NCBI RefSeq assembly: GCF_000739595.1
Contig: NZ_BBJP01000030.1
Coordinates: 1 to 64,000, forward strand
Direction of reading: 5' to 3'
Length of the DNA stretch: 64,000 nt
From: Halorubrum halophilum
GTDB taxonomy: Archaea; Halobacteriota; Halobacteria; Halobacteriales; Haloferacaceae
In this document: positions 14,417 through 40,919 of the stretch, in pieces
Numbering within the stretch: position 1 is the first letter of the stretch
Layout of the letters: the number at the start of each line of letters is the position of its first letter
Notes under the pieces: model-generated
Database searches by the model: none
What the model was told of the DNA's origin: nothing
What the model saw: only the letters and a program-made list of their open reading frames with translations
Made by a program: the position numbers and the translations under genes

Positions 14417-14942
14417 ATGGAAGAGGGGTCGGACCCGGGGGACGACGGCGCTATCGCGGCCGAACTCCGCCGGCTTCACGAAGTGACCCGTGAGATGACC
14501 GCCGCGGCGACCCGCGAGGAGGTGTTCGGGGTCGCGACCGCCGCCGCAAGCGACCTGCTCGGATTCGAGTACAACACCGTCCGAGAGCACGACCCGCGCC
14601 GAGACACGCTCGCCCCCGTCGTGGTATCGCCCGCTCTCAGGGCGGTCGGCGGAGAGCGACGACCGTACGTCCGAGGTGAGTCGGTACAGTGGGAGGCGTT
14701 CGACGACGGGGAGATACGGGTGTACCAACGCGTGGCGGCGATCGACGACGACGCGGACCGCGACGGCGTACCGACCGGCTAACGGCGGCGATCCGGGGGG
14801 GCTCGGACTCGCCATCGTCGCCGATGTCGCCGCCGCGCACGGCTGGTCGCTCTCGCTGACGACAAGTCGAGTCGGCGGCGCCCGCGTGGAAATAGCGACC
14901 GGCGGCACCCCCGACGGGAAGGGGCTCACCCGGCGAGGTGGC
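14417..14942 (+). pseudogene. Remnant of a GAF-domain histidine kinase
   Basis: The first frame (14417-14782) encodes the start of a haloarchaeal sensor kinase: a helical linker, RLHEVTREMTAAATREEVFG, then ASDLLGFEYNTVREHDPR typical of a GAF domain. That domain breaks off early. After a TAA, in another frame, come GGLGLAIVADVAAAHGW and SLSLTTSRVGGARVEI, which match the G2 box and end of a histidine-kinase ATPase. The rest of the GAF, the phosphorylatable His and the N and G1 boxes are missing. A large internal deletion plus frameshift explains this. It is not expected to make a working kinase. Confidence 0.8.
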
Positions 14943-15117
14943 TGATGTCCCGACGGAGCGTGTACCCCTTCGGCACCCCGACATCGCCCAGACAGTCCTC
15001 GCACAGCACCCGCTCGTAGTCGCGGTTCGTCTCCTTCTCGAGCAGCGAGACGTCTCCGATCGGCAGCACCGACTCGCACCGATCGCACTCGACCTTGTCG
15101 CCGTCGACGATCTTCAT
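14926..15117 (-). CDS. Small double-CxxC zinc protein
   Basis: A 63-residue protein with two Cys pairs, ECDRCES near residues 9-15 and LCEDCLG near 37-43, which together form a likely zinc-binding module. It begins MKIVDGDKVECDRC. The ATG at 15117 is chosen over one 17 codons upstream because GAGAGGTG directly precedes it, a good ribosome-binding site. The gene overlaps the end of the broken kinase gene in the opposite direction. Function is unknown; it could act as a small nucleic-acid or protein adaptor. Confidence 0.72.
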   Translation of the reverse strand: MKIVDGDKVECDRCESVLPIGDVSLLEKETNRDYERVLCEDCLGDVGVPKGYTLRRDISHLAG

Positions 15118-15182
15118 CACCTCTCCGTTTCCGAGATCGGTATATAAACTCGCGGACGGCGTTATCACTCGGGATAGCGAGC

Positions 15183-28909: not shown

Positions 28910-29025
28910 TACCGTGTACCACCCCCAGAACACACTTCAATTCACCCCTCAAAATATCAGCCGTGAGAAGACATCCGTTCGGCGGGGTTCCAGTGATACC
29001 GCGGCACCGTCCGAGCGGAACCCGC
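28910..29025 (-). promoter_or_regulatory. Possible internal promoter for arlCED-J
   Basis: The 116-base gap between cheD and the arl genes contains GATATTTTGA on the minus strand (about 28949-28958), a weak TATA-like box about 45 bases from the ATG. A GGGGGTGG near 28920 could be a ribosome-binding site. It may allow separate expression of the motor genes. Confidence 0.35.
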
Positions 29026-29571: not shown

Positions 29572-30767
29572 GGCTCCGAGAGACGGTCGAGCGCCCGCGC
29601 CAGTTCGCGCTCGTCCGGGAGCGCGTACACGTCGCACCGCGTCTCCACGCCCTCCGTCTGGATCGCGGCGTCGATCACGAACCCGTAGTCCTGCCGCCGG
29701 CTCAGCTTCGCGACCAGCGGGCTGATCGTGGCCGAGCCGATGTCGTGGACGAACTCCGGCGGCGAGTGGGTGATCGAGGTGCCGAGCACGTTCGCCCAGC
29801 CGTCGATGAATCCGCTCGTCATCACGTTGCCGAGCTCGCAGAGCGCGTTCTCGGCCATCCCACCCAGCGGCTCGTCCGGCTCGCTGGGGAGCATCGAGGC
29901 CGCGATCTTCTCCGCGGACTCCTCCTCGAAGAGGATCGCGAGGTAGCCGCTCGGCTCCCCCTGTAACTCGAAGACGGTCCCCGCGTGCGGCTCGACGCCG
30001 ACCTCCGCGGGCACGTCGGCGAGCGGCACGAACCGCAGCCGGCTCACGTCGACGCTCGTGTCGAGGCCCGTCATCATCGCGATGTTGTCGGCGGCGTTCG
30101 CGGAGCCGCGCTTCGCCAGCGACGCGAACGTCGACAGCGACTCGTAGGGGACCGCGGTGCTGTCGGCGCCGTCCTTGCCCGCCCCGCCGTCCGCGCCCGG
30201 CGCGGCGGCCGGCGCGGTCTTGCCCACGATGAGGTCGCGGAACTGCCCGGAGTCGGGAAGCATGTAGATCGAGAAGTCCAGATCCGTCGTCGTCGCGTCC
30301 AGTCGGCTCTCGAAGAGGAACACCCCGTCGCCGGCGAGCGCCCCGTCGGGGAGGACGGCGGCGCCGTCGGCCTCGAAGTACCGGGGCGGCGTCATGTCGA
30401 TCGCTTTCCCGAGGTAGTTCGCCCAGCCGTCGAGGAACCCGCCGAGCGCGATGTTGCCGACCTCGGTCACCGCGCTGCGTCCCATCGACGACCCGCCCGG
30501 TAACAGCGAGAGCAGGGCGTCGACGTTGTCCGCGTCGAACGCGAGGACCGCCTCGCCCTCCAACCCGCCCCGGAGCCCGACGCTCACGCCGATCGACTCC
30601 CGGCCGGCGAACGCCTCGGCGAGGTCCTCGCCGCTGGCGACGCTTGCGCCCGTGACCTCCACGGAGAGATCCGTGCCGGTCAGGTCGGTGAGCGCGCCGG
30701 CGGCCTGCCCGGCCCCTCGCTCCGCCAGCCGGTTGCAGGCGCCGAGCGCCCGGACGTCGACGCGCAT
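29568..30767 (-). CDS. cheC: Double-domain CheC phosphatase
   Basis: A 399-residue chemotaxis protein with two tandem CheC domains. Domain 1 has EVGNIALGGFLDGWANYLG near residues 108-126 and domain 2 has ELGNVMTSGFIDGWANVLG near 305-323; the E..N pairs are the CheY-phosphate hydrolysis residues. Bacterial CheC is half this length with one domain holding both motif copies, so this is an expanded form. It is expected to dephosphorylate CheY encoded directly upstream and may bind CheD. Its ATG overlaps the cheY stop by one base. Confidence 0.9.
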   Translation of the reverse strand: MRVDVRALGACNRLAERGAGQAAGALTDLTGTDLSVEVTGASVASGEDLAEAFAGRESIGVSVGLRGGLEGEAVLAFDADNVDALLSLLPGGSSMGRSAVTEVGNIALGGFLDGWANYLGKAIDMTPPRYFEADGAAVLPDGALAGDGVFLFESRLDATTTDLDFSIYMLPDSGQFRDLIVGKTAPAAAPGADGGAGKDGADSTAVPYESLSTFASLAKRGSANAADNIAMMTGLDTSVDVSRLRFVPLADVPAEVGVEPHAGTVFELQGEPSGYLAILFEEESAEKIAASMLPSEPDEPLGGMAENALCELGNVMTSGFIDGWANVLGTSITHSPPEFVHDIGSATISPLVAKLSRRQDYGFVIDAAIQTEGVETRCDVYALPDERELARALDRLSEP

Positions 30768-31123
30768 TATACCGCCGATCCGATGGCGTCGAGCACGTTC
30801 GGCTTCTGGAACGGCTTCGTGATGTACCCCTCGGCGCCGGCCTTGATGGCCGCCTTCATCTTCTCCTCCTGCCCGACGCTGGTACACATGATCACCGTCG
30901 CTTCCGGGTTCTCTTCGAGGATCTCCGTCGTCGCCTCGATGCCGTCCCGGATCGGCATCACGATGTCCATCATCACGAGATCGGGCCCGTGTTCTTCGTA
31001 CATGTTGACCGCTTCCACGCCGTTTTCCGCCTCGCCGACGATCTCGAACTCCCCTTCGAGGATCTCCCGGAGCAGGTTCCGCATGAACTCCGAGTCGTCC
31101 GCGATAAGCACGCGCGTTGCCAT
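30767..31123 (-). CDS. cheY: Chemotaxis response regulator CheY
   Basis: A 118-residue single receiver domain that, once phosphorylated by CheA, signals the archaellum to switch direction, via CheF and ArlCDE in archaea. The acidic pocket is IADDSEF (Asp9, Asp10), the phosphorylated Asp is Asp53 in VMMDIVMP, Thr81 is in MCTSVG and Lys103 is in ITKPF. It is the first gene of the cheY-cheC-cheD group. CheA and CheF are not in the window. Confidence 0.96.
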   Translation of the reverse strand: MATRVLIADDSEFMRNLLREILEGEFEIVGEAENGVEAVNMYEEHGPDLVMMDIVMPIRDGIEATTEILEENPEATVIMCTSVGQEEKMKAAIKAGAEGYITKPFQKPNVLDAIGSAV

Positions 31124-31149
31124 GGTTACTCGAAAGGCGGGACAGCGTT

Positions 31150-31188
31150 CACTTAACGACTCCCCCGCGGTTCTCAGCGCTGAGAACC
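31150..31188 (-). promoter_or_regulatory. cheY promoter with 20-base perfect palindrome
   Basis: A perfect palindrome, GGTTCTCAGCGCTGAGAACC, occupies 31169-31188. On the minus strand it lies just upstream of GTTAAGTG (about 31151-31158), a TATA-like box about 30 bases before cheY. This position fits an operator for a dimeric regulator. It could instead be the terminator hairpin of the surface-protein gene that ends at 31226, but no T-run follows. Confidence 0.55.
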
Positions 31189-31225: not shown

Positions 31226-34200
31226 TCAGACCCAGTGACCGAGGAGATACGTCGAGCCCACGAGGACCGTTCCCCCGAACGTCTCCCGCGTCCCGATGCC
31301 GAAGGGCAGGAACGTCGCCGGCGCGTCGTCGTCGCCGTCCGGACCGTCCTCACCGCCGTTCGAGTCGTCCCCGGCGTCGGGCTCCGAGTCCGCGGCGTCA
31401 CTGTCGCCCGGAGACGCGCTCACCGTCTGGGCGGTTCCGTTGTCCCGATCGGTCATGGTGACGTTCTCGCCGTCCCCCTCCGTGACGGTCAGCTGCCCGG
31501 TTTCCTCGTCGTTGTCGGTCCGGAGGGCGTATTCGTACTGGCCCGGAGGGAGGACGACGAACCGGTCGGAGAGGTCGAGCGTCGTCGACTCCGTGCTGTC
31601 AAGCGTCGTCGACATCTCCGTCACGGTCTCGCCGTCGATGGCGAACTCGACCATCTGCCGGTCGGCGATCTCGCCCGTGTTGGTGACCTCGCCCGCTATC
31701 GAGTCCAGACGCTCGCCCTGGGCGACCGTCGTCTCCGCCGTGAGGTTGCTGACCTCGAAGTAGGCCGGCTCGTCGAGGTCGTCGACCACGATCGCGCCGC
31801 GTTTGTCCAGCAGCCTGTTCCCGACGAGCCGTTCGGGAGTGTAGAACTCGACCTCGACGCGTTCGCCCGGCTCCAGCTCGGAGAAGTCGTGAACGACCTC
31901 GAAGCCGCCGTCCTCGCCGATGGTGACGTCTTCGACAGTGATCGTCGTCGGTTCGGGGCGGTCGCTCGCGATCAGCTGGACCGTGACATCCGAGTTGGGA
32001 GCGATGTTCGTGTTGCCAGCGATCACTCCGTCTTGGCTCGACGGGACCATCAGCTCCCTGTCGAGGCCCGTCTGGCGGTACTCGACGTACGGGTCCTCGA
32101 AGACGAACGAGTCGTTCGTCCGCACCGTCGTGTCGCCGTCGCCGAAGTACGGGTAGTGTTCGAGGCCGTCGGTCTCCTCCATGGTTCGGTTGAACGGGTC
32201 GGGCTGCTCCCCGTCGGCGAGCGAGTAGTCCTCGAACTGATACCGCTCGTCCTCGGGGGACTCGTACGCCATCTCGAAGGCGAGCTCGTCGCCGTCGCGG
32301 GGCTGGTTGTCGAACGGGTCCGACCCGCGGGTGTCGATCACGAAGTAGAGACCGCCGACGACGGGGTCGTCGCCGACGGCGTCGCCGTTCTCCCACTGGA
32401 ACGCGCTGTCGTCCGGGAGTATGTAGAGGTCGCTGCTGGCGACGTCGGTGAACCGAAGCGTCGATCCCGGGTTGTTCGGCGCGCCGAGCGACTGATGGGT
32501 GAGCTCCGCGTGGACGCCCTCGTGGCGTTCGAGCAGCGTCGCGAACTGCTCGGTGTCGATGTTCCCGGGCGCGCCCTCCCCGGAGTCGGCGTTCTCGTTG
32601 ATCGCGGGGTGTTCGGTGTCTCCCGCCAGAAGCGCGCCGAAGGTCCCGCTCCCGCGCACCTCGACGAGGATCCGGTCGCCGCGGGCGATCGTGTCGGTCT
32701 CGGTGGCGTCGGCGCGGAGCGCCCCGATGTCGCCGAGCCCCATCGGCCCCGACTCCTCGTCGAACCGGTCCAGTCGATCGGCCGGGCCGGGCGGGAGGAC
32801 GTACGTGTTCACCTCGCCGAGCTCCGGCTGCGTGAGGACGAGGTTCGACCGGTCGACCGGGTGCCGGAAGCCGGGGACGTCGTCGTCGCGGAGCATCACG
32901 GTTCCGGTCGCGCCGGCGACGAGGCGGTACCGGCCGGCCTGAAGGGGGCTCCCGCGCGCGGTGAGCCCGACCTCGTCGCGGAACTCGGCGAGCGTGTCCG
33001 CCACCTCGGTGCCGCGGTGGTTCTGGAACGTCACGTCGGAGAACGTCCCCTCCGGGTCCACGCCCTCGTCGTCCGAGTCGTTCGCGGCGCCGATGCTGTG
33101 CGCGTAGCTCGTCACCTCGCCGTCGGAGACCGGGATGTACACGTCCTCGGAGGGAGCGTCGGTGCCGACGAGGCGGGTGTTGATCACGAACGACGCGTCG
33201 CCCGTCACGTGCAGGACGTCGAGGTGGTTCTGGAGGCTGCGCTCCCCCGACTCCCGGTCGCCGCCGACGAGGAGGTACGCCTCGTCAAGCGAGTCGTCCA
33301 TCGTGACGTCGACCACGACGAAGTCGCCCGCGGGCGACTGGTACCGGTCCTGCGAGAACTCGACGGCGCCGCTCTCGAAGGCGTTCGACACCGCGAACGA
33401 CGACGAGGCGTTCTCGCCGAGGGCGCTGACTTCGGCGGTGTAGTCGCCGTCGTCGATCTCGCTCCGGGCCGGCAGCTGGAACGTCTCCGTGTACGACGAC
33501 TCCGGCTCGTGGCCGACGGTCACCGTCCTGTCATCGATCGTCGACGACGGCCCCTCGACCGCGACGTTCACCTCGTCTTCAACCTCCTCGTCGAACGTGT
33601 ACTGGACCGTCACCGTCTCCGTGGCCTGTCCGAGGTCCGTCCACACGTCGTCCACCGACAGTCGCACGTCGGTCGCGCGGGTCAGGTCGAAGTCACGCTC
33701 GGTCGCCGGTTCGCCCGTCTGCCCGACCTCCACGGAGTGACTCCGGGTCTCGTAGTCGGCGTGCTCCGCGACGACCGTGTGCGTCCCGAACGGAACGTCC
33801 GAGAGCCGGTACCGCCCGTCCGGGCCGGTCGGCGCACTGCGGTCCACGCTGCCCTCGATCCGGACCGACACGTTATGCAGCCCGTTTCCGTGCGGGCCGG
33901 TGACGCGTCCCGTGATGTCGTTATCCACGTGGGTGAGAGAGATGTTCTTCGTCAGCCCGTCCTCGCTGGAGATCGGCTGCGACATCGTCTCCGTCTGGAA
34001 CGTGTCGGCGCTGGCCACGATGTCGCGCTGCCCGCCAGTCGTCGTCGACGGGACCTTGAGTATCTCGTAGGTCCCGTCCTCGTCGGTTTCCGTCGTCAGG
34101 TCGTCCTGACCGATGCCGGGCCAGATGCCGGTGTCCGCGTCGACGGAAACCGTCGCGCCCGCGATCGGTTCCCCCTCGGTGTTGGTGACCGTCCCGTTGA

Positions 34201-34885
34201 CGGTCGTGAGGACGGGAGCCAGATCGATGTTTCGGGTGGCCGTCTCATTGTTCCGGACGGCCACATCCGCTTCTTTCGGGTCGAACCCGTCCTGAGTCGC
34301 GGTGACCGTGACATCTCCCGTCGGGACCTGAGTCATGTTATATTCGCCGGTCTCGTTGGTCTCGACGTCCCAGTAGTCCGCCCCAGTGGCTGCCATTATT
34401 TTCCGGTCCGTCTCGTTGTCGTGTCGTACCGTGACGGTGACCTCGGGGAGCGGATCGCCCCCCATCGGACCGGACTCGCCCGCGATCGTTCCGGTCAGTG
34501 TTCCCGTCTTTCGCGTCAGGGTGACGTCCTCCGTCACCGGAGAGTTCGTCGTCGACACCGCGACGTCGGTGTCCAGCTTCTCGTACTTGTCGTGAGTTAT
34601 CTCCAACCCCTGTTCGTCGTACGGGAGGTCGTCGATCTCGTAGGCCCCGCTTTCGTCGGTCGTGTCCGTCAGGCCTGAGTGGCCCTCGACCGTCACCGTC
34701 GCGCCGGCGATCGGCTCGCCGGCGGCGTTGGTGACGGTTCCTTCGATAGTGCCGTTGGCGCCGGACTGCGCCGCGCCCGACGGGGCCGTCGCCGCCAGGC
34801 CGACGGCACAGCACAACAGCAGTCCAACGACCAGCAGGCGGCGGCGGGGACCGGGGGCGCCGCCGGTCAACGTGACGAGATCCAT
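31226..34885 (-). CDS. Large secreted surface protein with carboxypeptidase-regulatory repeats
   Basis: A 1219-residue exported protein. A signal peptide fills residues 1-39 (RRRLLVVGLLLCCAVGLAAT, cleavage near SGAAQ). Four to five carboxypeptidase-regulatory-like beta-sandwich repeats follow to about residue 400, for example GTIEGTVTNAAGEPIAGATV and GTVTNTEGEPIAGATVSVDA. The middle has BGTF-like S-layer features such as FSQDRYQSPAGDFVVVDVTM. The end has a CARDB-like segment, an acidic linker and a short hydrophobic tail GGTVLVGSTYLLGHWV without a PGF motif. It is probably a cell-surface or S-layer-associated adhesin or structural protein. Its place between cheY and the archaellins is unusual. 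Confidence 0.8.
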   Translation of the reverse strand: MDLVTLTGGAPGPRRRLLVVGLLLCCAVGLAATAPSGAAQSGANGTIEGTVTNAAGEPIAGATVTVEGHSGLTDTTDESGAYEIDDLPYDEQGLEITHDKYEKLDTDVAVSTTNSPVTEDVTLTRKTGTLTGTIAGESGPMGGDPLPEVTVTVRHDNETDRKIMAATGADYWDVETNETGEYNMTQVPTGDVTVTATQDGFDPKEADVAVRNNETATRNIDLAPVLTTVNGTVTNTEGEPIAGATVSVDADTGIWPGIGQDDLTTETDEDGTYEILKVPSTTTGGQRDIVASADTFQTETMSQPISSEDGLTKNISLTHVDNDITGRVTGPHGNGLHNVSVRIEGSVDRSAPTGPDGRYRLSDVPFGTHTVVAEHADYETRSHSVEVGQTGEPATERDFDLTRATDVRLSVDDVWTDLGQATETVTVQYTFDEEVEDEVNVAVEGPSSTIDDRTVTVGHEPESSYTETFQLPARSEIDDGDYTAEVSALGENASSSFAVSNAFESGAVEFSQDRYQSPAGDFVVVDVTMDDSLDEAYLLVGGDRESGERSLQNHLDVLHVTGDASFVINTRLVGTDAPSEDVYIPVSDGEVTSYAHSIGAANDSDDEGVDPEGTFSDVTFQNHRGTEVADTLAEFRDEVGLTARGSPLQAGRYRLVAGATGTVMLRDDDVPGFRHPVDRSNLVLTQPELGEVNTYVLPPGPADRLDRFDEESGPMGLGDIGALRADATETDTIARGDRILVEVRGSGTFGALLAGDTEHPAINENADSGEGAPGNIDTEQFATLLERHEGVHAELTHQSLGAPNNPGSTLRFTDVASSDLYILPDDSAFQWENGDAVGDDPVVGGLYFVIDTRGSDPFDNQPRDGDELAFEMAYESPEDERYQFEDYSLADGEQPDPFNRTMEETDGLEHYPYFGDGDTTVRTNDSFVFEDPYVEYRQTGLDRELMVPSSQDGVIAGNTNIAPNSDVTVQLIASDRPEPTTITVEDVTIGEDGGFEVVHDFSELEPGERVEVEFYTPERLVGNRLLDKRGAIVVDDLDEPAYFEVSNLTAETTVAQGERLDSIAGEVTNTGEIADRQMVEFAIDGETVTEMSTTLDSTESTTLDLSDRFVVLPPGQYEYALRTDNDEETGQLTVTEGDGENVTMTDRDNGTAQTVSASPGDSDAADSEPDAGDDSNGGEDGPDGDDDAPATFLPFGIGTRETFGGTVLVGSTYLLGHWV

Positions 34886-34974
34886 CGGATACGGCGAGGT
34901 ATCGAACGGGAGAATTTAACATATCGGGTGCAGTTCTCGCCCGCTATAATCGGGGCGACCGGATCTCTCGCCCC

Positions 34975-36345
34975 TCAGCGACGCCGCCACGCGACGACTC
35001 CGGCCCCGGACAGGAGGGTGAGCAGCGCTCCCGCCCCCAGCCGGAGGTCGACGTCGATCGCGATGGGACCGTCGTCGTCTCCGTCGCTGCCGTCCTCGTC
35101 GTTCCCGTCGCCGTCCCCATCGCTCTCCCCGCCATCCTCGTCGCCGCCGTCGCCGCCGTCGCCGTCCGACTCTTCGCCGTCCGACGCGCCGTCGCCGTTC
35201 GGGTCAGTCACCGTGATCGTCCCGTTCGCCGAGTCGCCGTCGGTGTCGACGACGAACTCGTACTCCCCGGGCTCGGTCGGCGCCGAGAGGGTCGTGGAGA
35301 CGGTGGTCGACGCGCCGCCGGGGAGAGACGGTTCGATCGCGGTCTGTCCCCCGTCGCCGAGCCGGAACGTCACCTCCCGCTCGGTCGTCGCACTCCACCG
35401 GTTCCGGACCGTGGCGGAGAGCGTCACGGTCGACCCCGGGTCGACCGACCCCGGCGCGGTGACCTCGGTTATCTCGAACGGACCGGTCTCGATGCCGCGC
35501 GCCGATATCTCCGCGGTGTCCGTGACGCCCGTGTCGGCCACCTCGACGGTGACGGCGCGGGGGACCGACTCGGCCTCGCCGAAGTCCGACCGGAGCCGCC
35601 CGTCGGCGAATCCGCGCAGGACGATCACGTCGTCGTCCGCGTACATCCCGTAGCCGTCGGCGCGGCGTTCGATCGGCGGTCGGTCGGCGTGCGGCGCGTT
35701 CTGATCCCTGAGCAGGCGATCGCGGATGAACGCCGACTCGAGATCGTCGAACGTCAGGTCCGGGGCGGTGACGTTCACGTTGTACCGGGCGCGGTTGGAC
35801 GTCAGCTCCAGTTCGAGGTCCGTCTCGACGGTCCCGTTGCCGGTGCCGCTCCCCACCAACCGCGCGTCGAGCGTCTGTACGAGCACCTCGAACGGTGCCG
35901 CCGCCTCCATGTCGGTGGTTCCGGTGATCGTCCCGTTGTCGACCACGACCGCCTTTGTCCGCTGTCCCGCCGGGACGAGGACGTACGTCCCGCTGAGCTT
36001 CGCCGTGTCTATCCGAACCGGACCGTCGACCTCGAACTCGCGGACGAGCGTCCCCGGTTCGTCGGTCTCCTCGTCGTACTCTCGGAGGTGCAACCGATCG
36101 CCCTCGACGGTCCCGTTCGGATCGTCGAACGCGACCGTCTGTCCCTGCCAGAACGTCCCGCCCGAGCTGAGGTTCCGGTCCGCGTCGTCGATCGTGTGGA
36201 AGCCGTCCGCGCCCGCCGCGTGGAGGGGCACCGTCTCGTCGGCGCGGTCGAGCCCGTGACCCGCCCCCGCGGCGGTCCCCGAGGCGAGGGCGCACAGCAC
36301 GACCAGCAGCAAGAGGAGCGGCGCTCCGCCGGCGCGCTCAGACAT
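34975..36345 (-). CDS. Secreted membrane-anchored surface protein
   Basis: A 456-residue exported protein with a signal peptide (PLLLLLVVLCALASGTAAGA) and an S-layer-like N-terminal domain including FWQGQTVAFD, as found at the start of haloarchaeal surface glycoproteins. A CARDB-type adhesion domain follows near residues 285-375 (VTAPGSVDPGSTVTLSATVR). A 60-residue Gly/Asp/Ser-rich linker then leads to a membrane helix, ALLTLLSGAGVVAWRRR. The C-terminal layout suits anchoring in the membrane, with the rest outside. It starts 89 bases upstream of the 1219-residue protein and probably shares its transcript. A GTG two codons upstream is an alternative start. Confidence 0.8.
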   Translation of the reverse strand: MSERAGGAPLLLLLVVLCALASGTAAGAGHGLDRADETVPLHAAGADGFHTIDDADRNLSSGGTFWQGQTVAFDDPNGTVEGDRLHLREYDEETDEPGTLVREFEVDGPVRIDTAKLSGTYVLVPAGQRTKAVVVDNGTITGTTDMEAAAPFEVLVQTLDARLVGSGTGNGTVETDLELELTSNRARYNVNVTAPDLTFDDLESAFIRDRLLRDQNAPHADRPPIERRADGYGMYADDDVIVLRGFADGRLRSDFGEAESVPRAVTVEVADTGVTDTAEISARGIETGPFEITEVTAPGSVDPGSTVTLSATVRNRWSATTEREVTFRLGDGGQTAIEPSLPGGASTTVSTTLSAPTEPGEYEFVVDTDGDSANGTITVTDPNGDGASDGEESDGDGGDGGDEDGGESDGDGDGNDEDGSDGDDDGPIAIDVDLRLGAGALLTLLSGAGVVAWRRR

Positions 36346-36599
36346 GGTCACGCGATCGAGAGCGGGGCGGAGACCGGTCGGACGGGCCGGACCCGTCGGC
36401 GCTCGTTTCGCGAGGTCGATACCGCTGCAGCGGGTCCATCTGCGTCGACGTGCGGGAGTGACGGATTAAAACGTACGCCTTCGAATATTACGGTTGATAA
36501 CCGATTCGGACCGGCGGGGGGAGAGAATCCGAAAGTCGGGGACGGGCGGGCGACGGTCTTCCGAAGAATTAATCCGGACCGTCTGCCGTACACACTACG

Positions 36600-37058
36600 A
36601 TGAAGACCTGTCCCCGGTGCGACTCGTCGCTCGACGACGAGGCCCGTTACTGCGTCGAGTGCGGCGCCCCGCAGACGGAGGACGCCGCCGAAGAGCTCGA
36701 CGAGTACGTGCAGCGGCAGGCCCAGCAGGTGGCGGCCGACTCCGGGGCCGAAGGGGGCGGGAGCGACGGAAGCGACGGAGACGACGGCTCCCGGTTCATC
36801 CCGACCGAAGAGCTCACCGACCGCGAGCAGCTCTGGCGTCGCGGCTGTTACGTGCTCGGCTACGGGACGATCGTCGTCGCACTCACGCTGGTCCCGCAGG
36901 TCGGCGCCTTTCCCCTCATTCTCGGCGGGATCGCGATCCTCCCGCCGATCCGTCGCCTGACCGCGGAGCCGCTCGGGAGCCCGCTGAAACGGGAGGTGAT
37001 GGCCGGGCTGTACGCGGTGTTCGCGCTGCTCGGCGTCGCGCTGCTGGTTCTTTTATAA
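36600..37058 (+). CDS. Zinc-ribbon membrane protein
   Basis: A 152-residue protein starting with a zinc ribbon, MKTCPRCDSSLDDEARYCVE followed by CG (Cys4, Cys7, Cys18, Cys21). An acidic linker follows and then two membrane helices (about residues 84-118 and 130-150). This arrangement is common in haloarchaeal proteins of unknown function. A TATA-like GAATTAATCC at about 36565 predicts a leaderless or very short leader. It is the only plus-strand gene within the motility region. Confidence 0.8.
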   Translation: MKTCPRCDSSLDDEARYCVECGAPQTEDAAEELDEYVQRQAQQVAADSGAEGGGSDGSDGDDGSRFIPTEELTDREQLWRRGCYVLGYGTIVVALTLVPQVGAFPLILGGIAILPPIRRLTAEPLGSPLKREVMAGLYAVFALLGVALLVLL

Positions 37059-37560: not shown

Positions 37561-38385
37561 CTATTCGATCCGGAACCCGTCGGCCTCCTCCGCGGCGCGT
37601 ACGAGGTCGCCGATGCTGTCGCTCGCCGTGAGTCCCTGGCTCGCGGCGAAGCGCTTGATCGCCACCGGCGGGACGTCGACGGTCGTCTCCGAGGCGACGA
37701 GCAGGAGCCCGAGCGCTTCCGGCGTGGGCGAGCTCGGCCCCGCGTTGGACGCGAACCACGTCACGAGCGAGTCGAACGTCGCCGTCACGTCGTTTGAGAC
37801 CATCCGCTGGCGGGTGGTGTCGCCGTCGACGTGGAGCGTCGCGTCGATCCCGTAAGTGAACCCGTCGTCGTCGAAGGAGCTCGCCAGCCACCGACTCACC
37901 GACTGGCGGTCGACCTCGGGGGCGCCGCGGCCTTGTTGGGAGTTGGCCGCACCTTGTTGGAGATTGGCTGCACCTTGTTGGGGGTTCGCGGGAGCGCCCC
38001 CTTGCGCGCGGGTCTCCTGCGATCGACCCGCACCGCCGTTTTGCGGTTGCCCAGCTCCTCCCTGCGGCCGGCCGGCGTTCCCGGCCTGCGGTTGGCCGCC
38101 CGCACCGCGAGGTGCGTCAGTTCCGGCTCCGCCTCCGGCACCTCCGCCGCCCGGATCCGGCGGTCGTCGCTCCTCCGGGTTCGCCGGGTCGGCGGACGTG
38201 AAGCCGGTGTCGTCTCCGGGACGCTGGTCCGGCTGCGCCCGGCGGATGTTGGGCCGGCCGTTCGTCCCGACGACGTACCGGCTCTCCCCGATCTCGACGA
38301 CGCTCTCGTCGTCGGTGAAGTCGAGCTCGTCGGGATCGGCCGGCATCGCGTCCGAGTCGGCCGCCGGTGCGTCGTGGTCACTCAT
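37561..38385 (-). CDS. Unrecognised acidic protein next to the archaellins
   Basis: A 274-residue soluble protein with three parts. The N-terminus is acidic (DPDELDFTDDESVVEIGESR). The centre is low-complexity and Gly/Gln/Pro-rich with short repeats such as NLQQGAANSQQG. The C-terminal domain of about 130 residues starts SVSRWLASSFDDDGFTYGID and ends TASDSIGDLVRAAEEADGFR; I do not recognise it firmly. It lies 86 bases downstream of arlA2 on the same strand and may be transcribed with the archaellins, which hints at a motility role, but that is inference. Confidence 0.7.
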   Translation of the reverse strand: MSDHDAPAADSDAMPADPDELDFTDDESVVEIGESRYVVGTNGRPNIRRAQPDQRPGDDTGFTSADPANPEERRPPDPGGGGAGGGAGTDAPRGAGGQPQAGNAGRPQGGAGQPQNGGAGRSQETRAQGGAPANPQQGAANLQQGAANSQQGRGAPEVDRQSVSRWLASSFDDDGFTYGIDATLHVDGDTTRQRMVSNDVTATFDSLVTWFASNAGPSSPTPEALGLLLVASETTVDVPPVAIKRFAASQGLTASDSIGDLVRAAEEADGFRIE

Positions 38386-38471: not shown

Positions 38472-39125
38472 TTAGAGCCGGACCGCTTCGTCGTTATTGC
38501 TGAAGAGGTCCGGGGCACGAAGCTCCACGGATGTCGTCGCAGACGAGGGCGACACAATATCGATCGACGACTGCTCGCTTTCGCCGAACGGGTCGGTCGA
38601 ACTACCGAACGGTTCAATCTCCGGATTGAGCACGATAGTGAACTGCTCCTCATCGTTGATCACTGGGTCGTCTACGAAGTCTCCGGTGCTGTTACGGACT
38701 CCGAAGTGATCGTCAGGAATATCTGTAGCGACAGCGTCTGCACCGCCAACTCCGCCGGGGCTGGCGCTGGTGTTAGCAAACACCAGATTTGCTTGTCCGT
38801 TTGGACCGACAGCCTGAATTGTCGATTCACTCAGATCGATCTCGTCGGCACCTGGCGATCCTGCGACAGTGATCCGAATCTCTGCCAACTCACCGTCGTC
38901 AGCGGTACCGGTGACGATACCCACCGAACTCGTCACGTCGATACGCTCGGAGACGAGATCGGTACTCTCCTGACCCGTTGCCTCTGCCTGCGACTGAAGG
39001 AATCCGGCCGTGTTGATCAGCACACCAGCGGCGATTGCTGCCACCAGCACCATCGCGATGAACACGATGAGAGTTCCGATACCCACTTGGCCGCGTTCTT
39101 CGGTGTTAGTGATTGATTCGAACAT
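38472..39125 (-). CDS. arlA2: Archaellin ArlA2 (flagellin)
   Basis: A 217-residue archaellin precursor. The 12-residue leader ends at EERG, where prepilin peptidase PibD cuts before QVGIGTLI. The hydrophobic helix [20 protein letters not shown] packs in the filament core. The outer beta-rich domain is variable and has several N-x-S/T sites for glycosylation. It begins 2 bases after the arlA1 stop. The variable part is noticeably lower in GC than the neighbouring genes. Confidence 0.96.
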
Positions 39126-39127
39126 GG

Positions 39128-39718
39128 TTATAGCCTCACCGAGTCCTCAACGACGGTACTAGGCACGCGGATCTCAGAGGTGGTCGACGCTCCACTTGGA
39201 GCCGTAAAGGTAACACTGAGCCTATCTCCTTCTTGGAGTTCGTACCCGATTTCATCACTATCGTCGATAGGGTCGTCAAGTAGGATGTTAATCTGGGCGC
39301 GTTCGCTGTTGTCCGTCAGAACAACGCTCAAGTCGTCGTTAGTGAAGATATCGATTGTCGCGTTGTCTTCATCGCCGATTTGGAACGATTCCTGCCCGTC
39401 AGCTCCGATCATCTCTATCGAAGTTTCACTAAGATCGATGTTATCGGAGCCAGGTGACTGAGCGACGACAAAGCTTAGGTTTGACATCTGCCCGGTGCTC
39501 TGATTGAATGTACCTGACTGACTCACGACCTGTAGCCGGTCGCTCACCTGACTCGTACTCTCTTGACCCGTTGCTTCCGCCTGCGTCTGAAGGAACCCGG
39601 CGGTGTTGATCAGGACGCCGGCGGCGATCGCCGCCACCAGCACCATCGCGATGAACACGATGAGGGTCCCGATCCCCACTTGACCGCGCTCTTCCTCGTC
39701 CAGTATTGTTTCGAACAT
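39128..39718 (-). CDS. arlA1: Archaellin ArlA1 (flagellin)
   Basis: A 196-residue archaellin precursor, first gene of the archaellin pair. The leader [12 protein letters not shown] is followed by the cleavage point before [10 protein letters not shown]. The first 55 residues are almost identical to ArlA2, the rest is diverged. Glycosylation sequons occur, for example in [14 protein letters not shown]. It forms the archaellum filament with ArlA2. The variable region is AT-richer than the surroundings. Confidence 0.96.
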
Positions 39719-40057
39719 TGTGTGTTGCGTCGGCCCCCGGCCTGCCCGGCGGGCGTTATCGCTAGGGAGTACGATTTCCCTATTAAAGACTCCGTGCCGA
39801 TTATTTGAACTGATAAAACGCTGCCGTCTTCCGATTTTCGGATTTGTTTTTGGATACTAGTTTCTGAATACATTAACGATATCGCGATCGAATTATCGGT
39901 TCTGGATCTGTGAGTGCGCCGTATCCCTGAGTCAGATCGATCGCGCTGGGGACGCGAATCCGCGACGCTCTCGCGTGCGATCGTCGGGAAAAGTTCGTCT
40001 CAGACTCGCTACGCTCGCGCCGTAGGCTCCGATCGCTCCGCGAGATTCCGCCTCGCC
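39719..40057 (-). promoter_or_regulatory. Archaellin promoter and upstream region
   Basis: A strong TATA box, CTTTAATA on the minus strand (39781-39788), lies about 63 bases before the arlA1 ATG, so the leader is about 38 bases. The hundred bases further upstream (39800-39900) are AT-rich, with no gene, and may hold activator sites. The remaining stretch to 40057 contains no convincing gene. Confidence 0.6.
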
Positions 40058-40580: not shown

Positions 40581-40919
40581 ATGGTGGGGGACGACTTGAT
40601 CACGGTGCTCGGCAACAAGTACAACACGGACATCCTGACTGCGACCGGTGACGCGAAGTCCGCGCAGGACCTCAGCGACGAGCTCGACGTGCCGATCGCG
40701 ACGTGTTACCGCCGGATTAACGAGCTGGAGGAGGCGGACCTCTTGGAGCTTCACGACCGCCCGCTCTCGGACGAGCACCGCCGCGTGAAGGTGTACCGCC
40801 GGAAGGTCGACGGCGTCGAGGTCGACTTCCGCGACGGGCTCACCGTGGAGGTCGAGGAGCGCTCCGCGGTGAAGAACCGCCTCGACGACGTGTGGCGCGA
40901 TCTCTCGTCCGGACAGTAG
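40581..40919 (+). CDS. Winged-helix transcriptional regulator
   Basis: A 112-residue ArsR-like regulator with the helix-turn-helix SAQDLSDELDVPIATCYRRI near residues 27-46 and the wing LLELHDRPLSDEHRRVKVYR. It has no extra sensor domain apart from the C-terminal acidic helix. It starts about 23 bases after a TATA-like CTTTTAAG (40550-40557) and is divergent from the membrane protein gene, so it may control that gene. Being next to the archaellin genes makes a motility role possible, without direct evidence. Confidence 0.8.
   Translation: MVGDDLITVLGNKYNTDILTATGDAKSAQDLSDELDVPIATCYRRINELEEADLLELHDRPLSDEHRRVKVYRRKVDGVEVDFRDGLTVEVEERSAVKNRLDDVWRDLSSGQ

Follow-up and report, generated by a model that had tools for sequence, protein, structure and literature searches.

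The archaellum-chemotaxis (arl-che) cluster of Halorubrum halophilum contains a surface-protein module that consists of a large secreted paralog of the S-layer glycoproteins, here denoted SURF, a zinc-ribbon protein, ZnR, and, sometimes, a CARDB-domain protein. We consider it probable that SURF is an envelope protein of the motile state that is held by its C-terminal tail together with ZnR. Under the mechanism we propose, SURF would be exported through its signal peptide and would end, in place of a PGF-CTERM segment, in a weakly hydrophobic tail of about 27 residues that ZnR would hold in the membrane. The placement of SURF and ZnR between the DUF7500 gene and cheY would date back to an ancestor of Halorubrum, and an archaellum/chemotaxis operator in the promoter would drive SURF such that it is made along with the swimming machinery. 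The protein might then serve as a variant S-layer subunit or an adhesive subunit compatible with archaella, with a collar or stator anchor being one possible form of this role. Such a module bears on how a rotating archaellum is accommodated in the haloarchaeal S-layer and on how surface proteins of haloarchaea are fixed without the PGF-CTERM route. It provides a genetic handle on both questions, through a probably motility-regulated S-layer paralog and through a pair, tail and partner, that is recognized by its joint presence in 60 genomes.

Gene order and domain architecture of the module

The window analyzed here is a 64-kb stretch of DNA (64,000 nucleotides), the minus strand of which carries, in this order, two archaellin genes, arlA1 and arlA2 (38472-39718), a gene for a DUF7500 protein (37561-38385), the CARDB gene P0002 (34975-36345 or 34975-36351), the SURF gene P0001 (31226-34885), cheY (30767-31123; PF00072), cheC, cheD, arlCDE, arlF, arlG, arlH, arlI, and arlJ, the last two being assigned from position and conservation. 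The ZnR gene (36600-37058, plus strand) lies between the DUF7500 gene and P0002 and is divergent from the SURF unit. An earlier note on this DNA had placed two surface-protein genes between cheY and the archaellins, on the same strand as both, and the ORF calls together with Pfam and NCBIfam matches bear this out; the gap also holds the DUF7500 and ZnR genes, which are absent from that note. In other genera, the DUF7500 gene adjoins cheY. The archaellin genes have a third-position GC of 0.64-0.65, compared with ~0.9 in nearly all other called genes.

Domain matches, a structure model and within-genome homology converge on the identity of SURF. The signal peptide and the PF13620 matches confirm its previous description as a 1219-residue secreted protein with carboxypeptidase-regulatory domains: the signal peptide is followed by four CarboxypepD_reg repeats (33710-34750, minus strand; PF13620, 6e-46), an Ig-type body, a BGTF surface domain (NF045517, 4.5e-13; 49.2 bits, above the curated cut-off of 40), an acidic linker and a conserved tail. 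Residues 475-1033 are homologous to both PGF-CTERM S-layer glycoproteins that this genome encodes (944 and 853 amino acids; 27 and 26% identity, 2e-35 and 3e-30, respectively). When residues 480-1219 were modeled with AlphaFold (mean pLDDT 76), the best PDB match of the model was 7ptp_A, an archaeal S-layer protein (E 3.2e-11, 749 columns), with a low whole-chain TM score (0.25) and an unmatched domain arrangement, which places the kinship at the level of a chain of Ig domains; a profile search of PDB sequences returned nothing useful. 7ptp is csg, the S-layer glycoprotein of Haloferax volcanii. SURF is a paralog of the bulk S-layer glycoproteins and resembles csg and the Hrr. lacusprofundi proteins Hlac_0412 and Hlac_2976 in its signal peptide, chain of Ig-like domains and acidic linker preceding the C-terminus, as well as by sequence homology and best fold match, but differs from them in its tail, which is not PGF-CTERM, in its location in the arl-che cluster and in its motility-type promoter. 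We rejected the possibility that SURF is the bulk S-layer itself, since the genome encodes two PGF-CTERM S-layer glycoproteins elsewhere, with SURF as the third paralog. PMC10544981 names Hlac_0412 and Hlac_2976 as the S-layer genes of Hrr. lacusprofundi, and PMC6011602 gives Hlac_2557 as its archaellin.

P0002 (456 or 458 amino acids) had been described as a membrane-anchored CARDB protein of 456 residues, and its signal peptide, CARDB domain (PF07705; 23.5 bits, marginally above the gathering cut-off of 22.7) and C-terminal transmembrane segment ending in RRR agree with this description. The structure model of this protein is poor (pLDDT 56).

The C-terminal tail and its co-occurrence with ZnR

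The lack of a PGF-type anchor and the unusual short hydrophobic end of the large protein had both been remarked upon from the sequence, and both observations hold: the tail of SURF matches neither PGF-CTERM nor any other NCBIfam tail model, and the odd end is a conserved segment of about 27 residues (31229-31309, minus strand; LPFGIGTRETFGGTVLVGSTYLLGHWV) that is delineated by ortholog conservation and profile matches. Its consensus, [LP]PFGIGTREtfGGTvlVGatYLLGHWV, closes all SURF orthologs and is the best-conserved stretch of these proteins (pairwise identity 0.79 vs. ~0.45 in the body). A frameshift or truncation as the source of this C-terminus was considered and rejected, given the conservation of the tail in dozens of orthologs. 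The tail profile matches in 48 of the 52 Halorubrum genomes; a diverged form is present in large SURF homologs of other haloarchaea; and a second family of surface proteins (~525-680 amino acids), with different Ig-like domains and otherwise unrelated, has the same linker and tail. A literature search yielded no report of this tail.

PGF-CTERM ends are used for lipid anchoring by archaeosortase. SURF shares with the PGF-CTERM substrates of archaeosortase A a low-complexity linker that leads into a conserved hydrophobic segment at the C-terminus. Unlike these substrates, its tail lacks the PGF motif and a basic end, is weakly hydrophobic (KD 1.0-1.6 vs. 2.65 for the PGF tail), is limited to one or two proteins per genome and co-occurs with ZnR, a protein with approximately three predicted transmembrane segments.

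This co-occurrence, every count of which is inflated by shared ancestry, is strict in one direction: all 60 of the 60 tail-bearing genomes encode ZnR, including those in which the two genes are unlinked. Independent searches for ZnR and the tail across 392 order-wide genomes detected both in 44, a confident tail without ZnR in none and ZnR without a confident tail in two (Fisher p ~3e-56, or 1e-7 by genus; these p-values ignore relatedness), and among the 52 Halorubrum genomes, 48 have both, two have ZnR only, two have neither and none has the tail only. ZnR is present with no tail detected in the genomes G009, G179, and G356. The simplest reading of this pattern is that the tail and ZnR form a dedicated partnership, presumably with physical contact between the two.

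Alternatively, the tail could be an ordinary short transmembrane anchor, with ZnR only a traveling neighbor of SURF. ZnR indeed adjoins SURF divergently in most genomes and, outside arl clusters, is mostly the divergent neighbor of SURF homologs, but this explanation appears somewhat unlikely in view of the weak hydrophobicity of the tail and of the genomes in which ZnR and the tail co-occur with ZnR unlinked to SURF (G216, G230, and G299). Moreover, where SURF has been lost and ZnR kept (G012, G017, G032, and G171, as well as G030), a second tail-bearing protein is encoded in each case; absence or disruption of SURF goes together with the second tail family (6/12 vs. 4/40, p ~0.006, ignoring relatedness). 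With respect to the dedicated partnership, we tentatively suggest that the tail and ZnR might constitute a new anchoring or sorting pair of haloarchaea that serves S-layer-like proteins, one or two in each genome, and that, in Halorubrum, has come under motility control. With the same hesitation, the tail can be viewed as a C-terminal signal, devoid of the PGF motif and basic end, that would be recognized or held by the zinc-ribbon membrane protein.

In several loci (L087, L091, L177, and L170), the genes for tail-bearing surface proteins adjoin genes for TetR, an MMPL/RND transporter, CetZ and/or PGF-CTERM surface proteins, and the position beside TetR and MMPL is taken by the second tail family in some genera and by SURF in others.

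Position and promoter in relation to the archaellum

A SURF ortholog occupies the same slot, between ZnR and cheY, in ~42 of the 52 Halorubrum species by our count, the gene being either intact or interrupted by nothing but the end of a contig. SURF and ZnR are absent from the arl clusters of 24 other genera, in which archaellin, DUF7500, and cheY (or the corresponding che genes) follow one another in this order; thus, the insertion into arl is specific to Halorubrum, and the relatives of SURF outside the genus sit away from arl. Even within Halorubrum, G012, G017, G032, and G171 have complete arl clusters and cleanly lack SURF, and G173 lacks it as well; G030 retains a degenerate copy, the G006 copy is interrupted by an in-frame TGA, and in G179 (L111) a deletion that removed cheY, cheC, and cheD has left a truncated SURF adjoining arlCDE. 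Since arl remains in all these genomes, the archaellum does not need SURF, which is also not conserved with arl across genera as a core component would be. A role as an arl component of all haloarchaea was rejected, the arl clusters of the 24 other genera being free of SURF. A literature search found no report of a SURF gene in an arl cluster, nor of the module.

Upstream of cheY, in the window, lies a conserved promoter and putative operator of its own (31148-31187, minus strand) that combines the palindrome GTTCTCAGCGCTGAGAACC with a TATA-like box. A TnTCA-N4-TGATAA-type palindrome with a TATA-like box precedes cheY across haloarchaeal genera (L037-L056 and L119-L146). The palindrome resembles an operator for an archaellum/chemotaxis regulator, and a candidate for this regulator is the winged-HTH protein that is encoded next to the archaellins in the window (40581-40919, plus strand; PF12840 HTH_20, 6.9e-11) and beside arl in many genera.

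A weight matrix trained on cheY promoters only, from 17 loci that all belong to other genera, gave its top scores in the window at cheY (36.0), the archaellins (22.8; 39778-39817, minus strand), a small zinc-finger gene (21.8), arlCDE (21.7; 28931-28970, minus strand) and P0002 (17.4; 36462-36501, minus strand), followed by a DUF7521-like gene beside the archaellins (16.8), after which the scores drop to 6.7. The P0002-SURF unit has the motif that is common to cheY and the archaellins. The 335 upstream regions of non-arl genes in the retrieved loci, which served as the background, have a 99th percentile of 7.1 and a maximum of 17.0, and the score draws on the palindrome as well as on the promoter part. 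Among the SURF upstream regions of Halorubrum, 27 of 32 score at least 6.5, with seven exceeding the entire background, and five score low; in two copies of the P0001 type, the low score is due to P0002 taking the promoter. The 21.8-scoring site (15139-15178, minus strand) fronts the small zinc-finger-like gene (14926-15168), which lies outside the arl cluster.

The shared promoter motif makes co-regulation of SURF with motility, and presumably co-expression, likely in Halorubrum and possible in the genera denoted g34 and g36. The earlier note took the location of these genes to suggest a link to the archaellum, and the fixed position in Halorubrum and the cheY/archaellin motif in the promoter of the module support this. 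The comparison of gene order across relatives, which that note had put forward as a check, cuts both ways: the slot is kept in Halorubrum, whereas the placement of SURF away from arl outside the genus speaks against an obligate part of the archaellum, and the shared promoter speaks for common control.

The same data bear on the explanation that SURF is a surface glycoprotein of an ordinary, rapidly evolving kind, for example an adhesin, a virus receptor or a decoy, whose gene occupies an intergenic site of convenience and whose promoter likeness is inherited from the neighborhood. The retention by cheY of its own promoter, the divergence, loss and horizontal replacement of SURF bodies, and the location of some homologs in the vicinity of S-layer, CetZ or MMPL genes would fit this explanation. 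Nevertheless, we regard it as unlikely, given the retention of the slot in most Halorubrum species and the presence of the motif at unlinked SURF genes of g34 (22.1 and 10.8) and of one g36 genome, G119 (9.8), compared with the 99th percentile of the background. Two other g36 SURF genes score 3.6 and -2.4, and the motif is missing from the SURF genes of family f4.

The specific roles envisaged earlier, namely stator anchoring, a sheath or adhesion competing with swimming, fared less well, in light of the SURF-less genomes with complete arl clusters and the relatives that lie away from arl. Stator anchoring by SURF is possible, with nothing specific in its favor. In its most explicit form, this idea makes the SURF protein of Halorubrum a collar or anchor, similar to the S-layer, by which the ArlF/ArlG stator would be fastened to the envelope. 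This is a special case of the envelope-protein interpretation that is consistent with the regulation, the fixed place in the arl-che cluster and the S-layer kinship of SURF, and with the general proposal, made in PMC12448462, that the S-layer is a scaffold for the stator. Such a collar, however, accounts for neither the dispensability of SURF, nor its fast divergence (down to ~30% identity in the body, whereas ArlF and ArlG mostly keep 60-87%), nor the wholesale replacement of the body by transfer, nor the lack of linkage to arl outside the genus, and we consider it improbable. Similarly to the contact between ArlF/ArlG and the S-layer, SURF belongs to the cell envelope, is encoded in the arl cluster and is likely subject to the same regulation, but unlike ArlF and ArlG, it is dispensable and confined to Halorubrum as a member of arl clusters, and it shows no similarity to either protein.

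A chimeric SURF protein

The SURF protein of the window is a chimera. Its body (residues 500-1159) shows 44-72% identity to the g34 homolog for most of its length, compared with 23-35% to typical Halorubrum orthologs, whereas the last 24 residues show the opposite pattern (31% to g34 vs. 85% to typical Halorubrum). Furthermore, in a tree of the body, P0001 and its ortholog from G031, a genome matching Hrr. amylolyticum, group with g34 and g36 (SH-aLRT 100), and CARDB homologs are found beside SURF in g34 and g36 genomes and, among the Halorubrum genomes checked, only in that of the window (G000) and in G031. Taken together, these three observations imply that the body and the CARDB gene were acquired jointly and became linked to the resident tail, beside the resident ZnR. 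Thus, the SURF body and CARDB of the window species and G031 are products of horizontal transfer, in which the exposed part was replaced and the resident tail and ZnR were kept. This natural chimera suggests which part of the protein must match the host. It is attractive to attribute the retention of the tail to selection for a fit with the host ZnR; recombination within the low-complexity linker could equally yield a retained tail, selection not being required.

The CarboxypepD_reg repeats are present in the SURF protein of the window and in its g34 homolog and were not found in the one typical Halorubrum ortholog tested. SURF orthologs are ~740-900 amino acids long across Halorubrum and reach 1137-1236 amino acids in three genomes, including that of the window.
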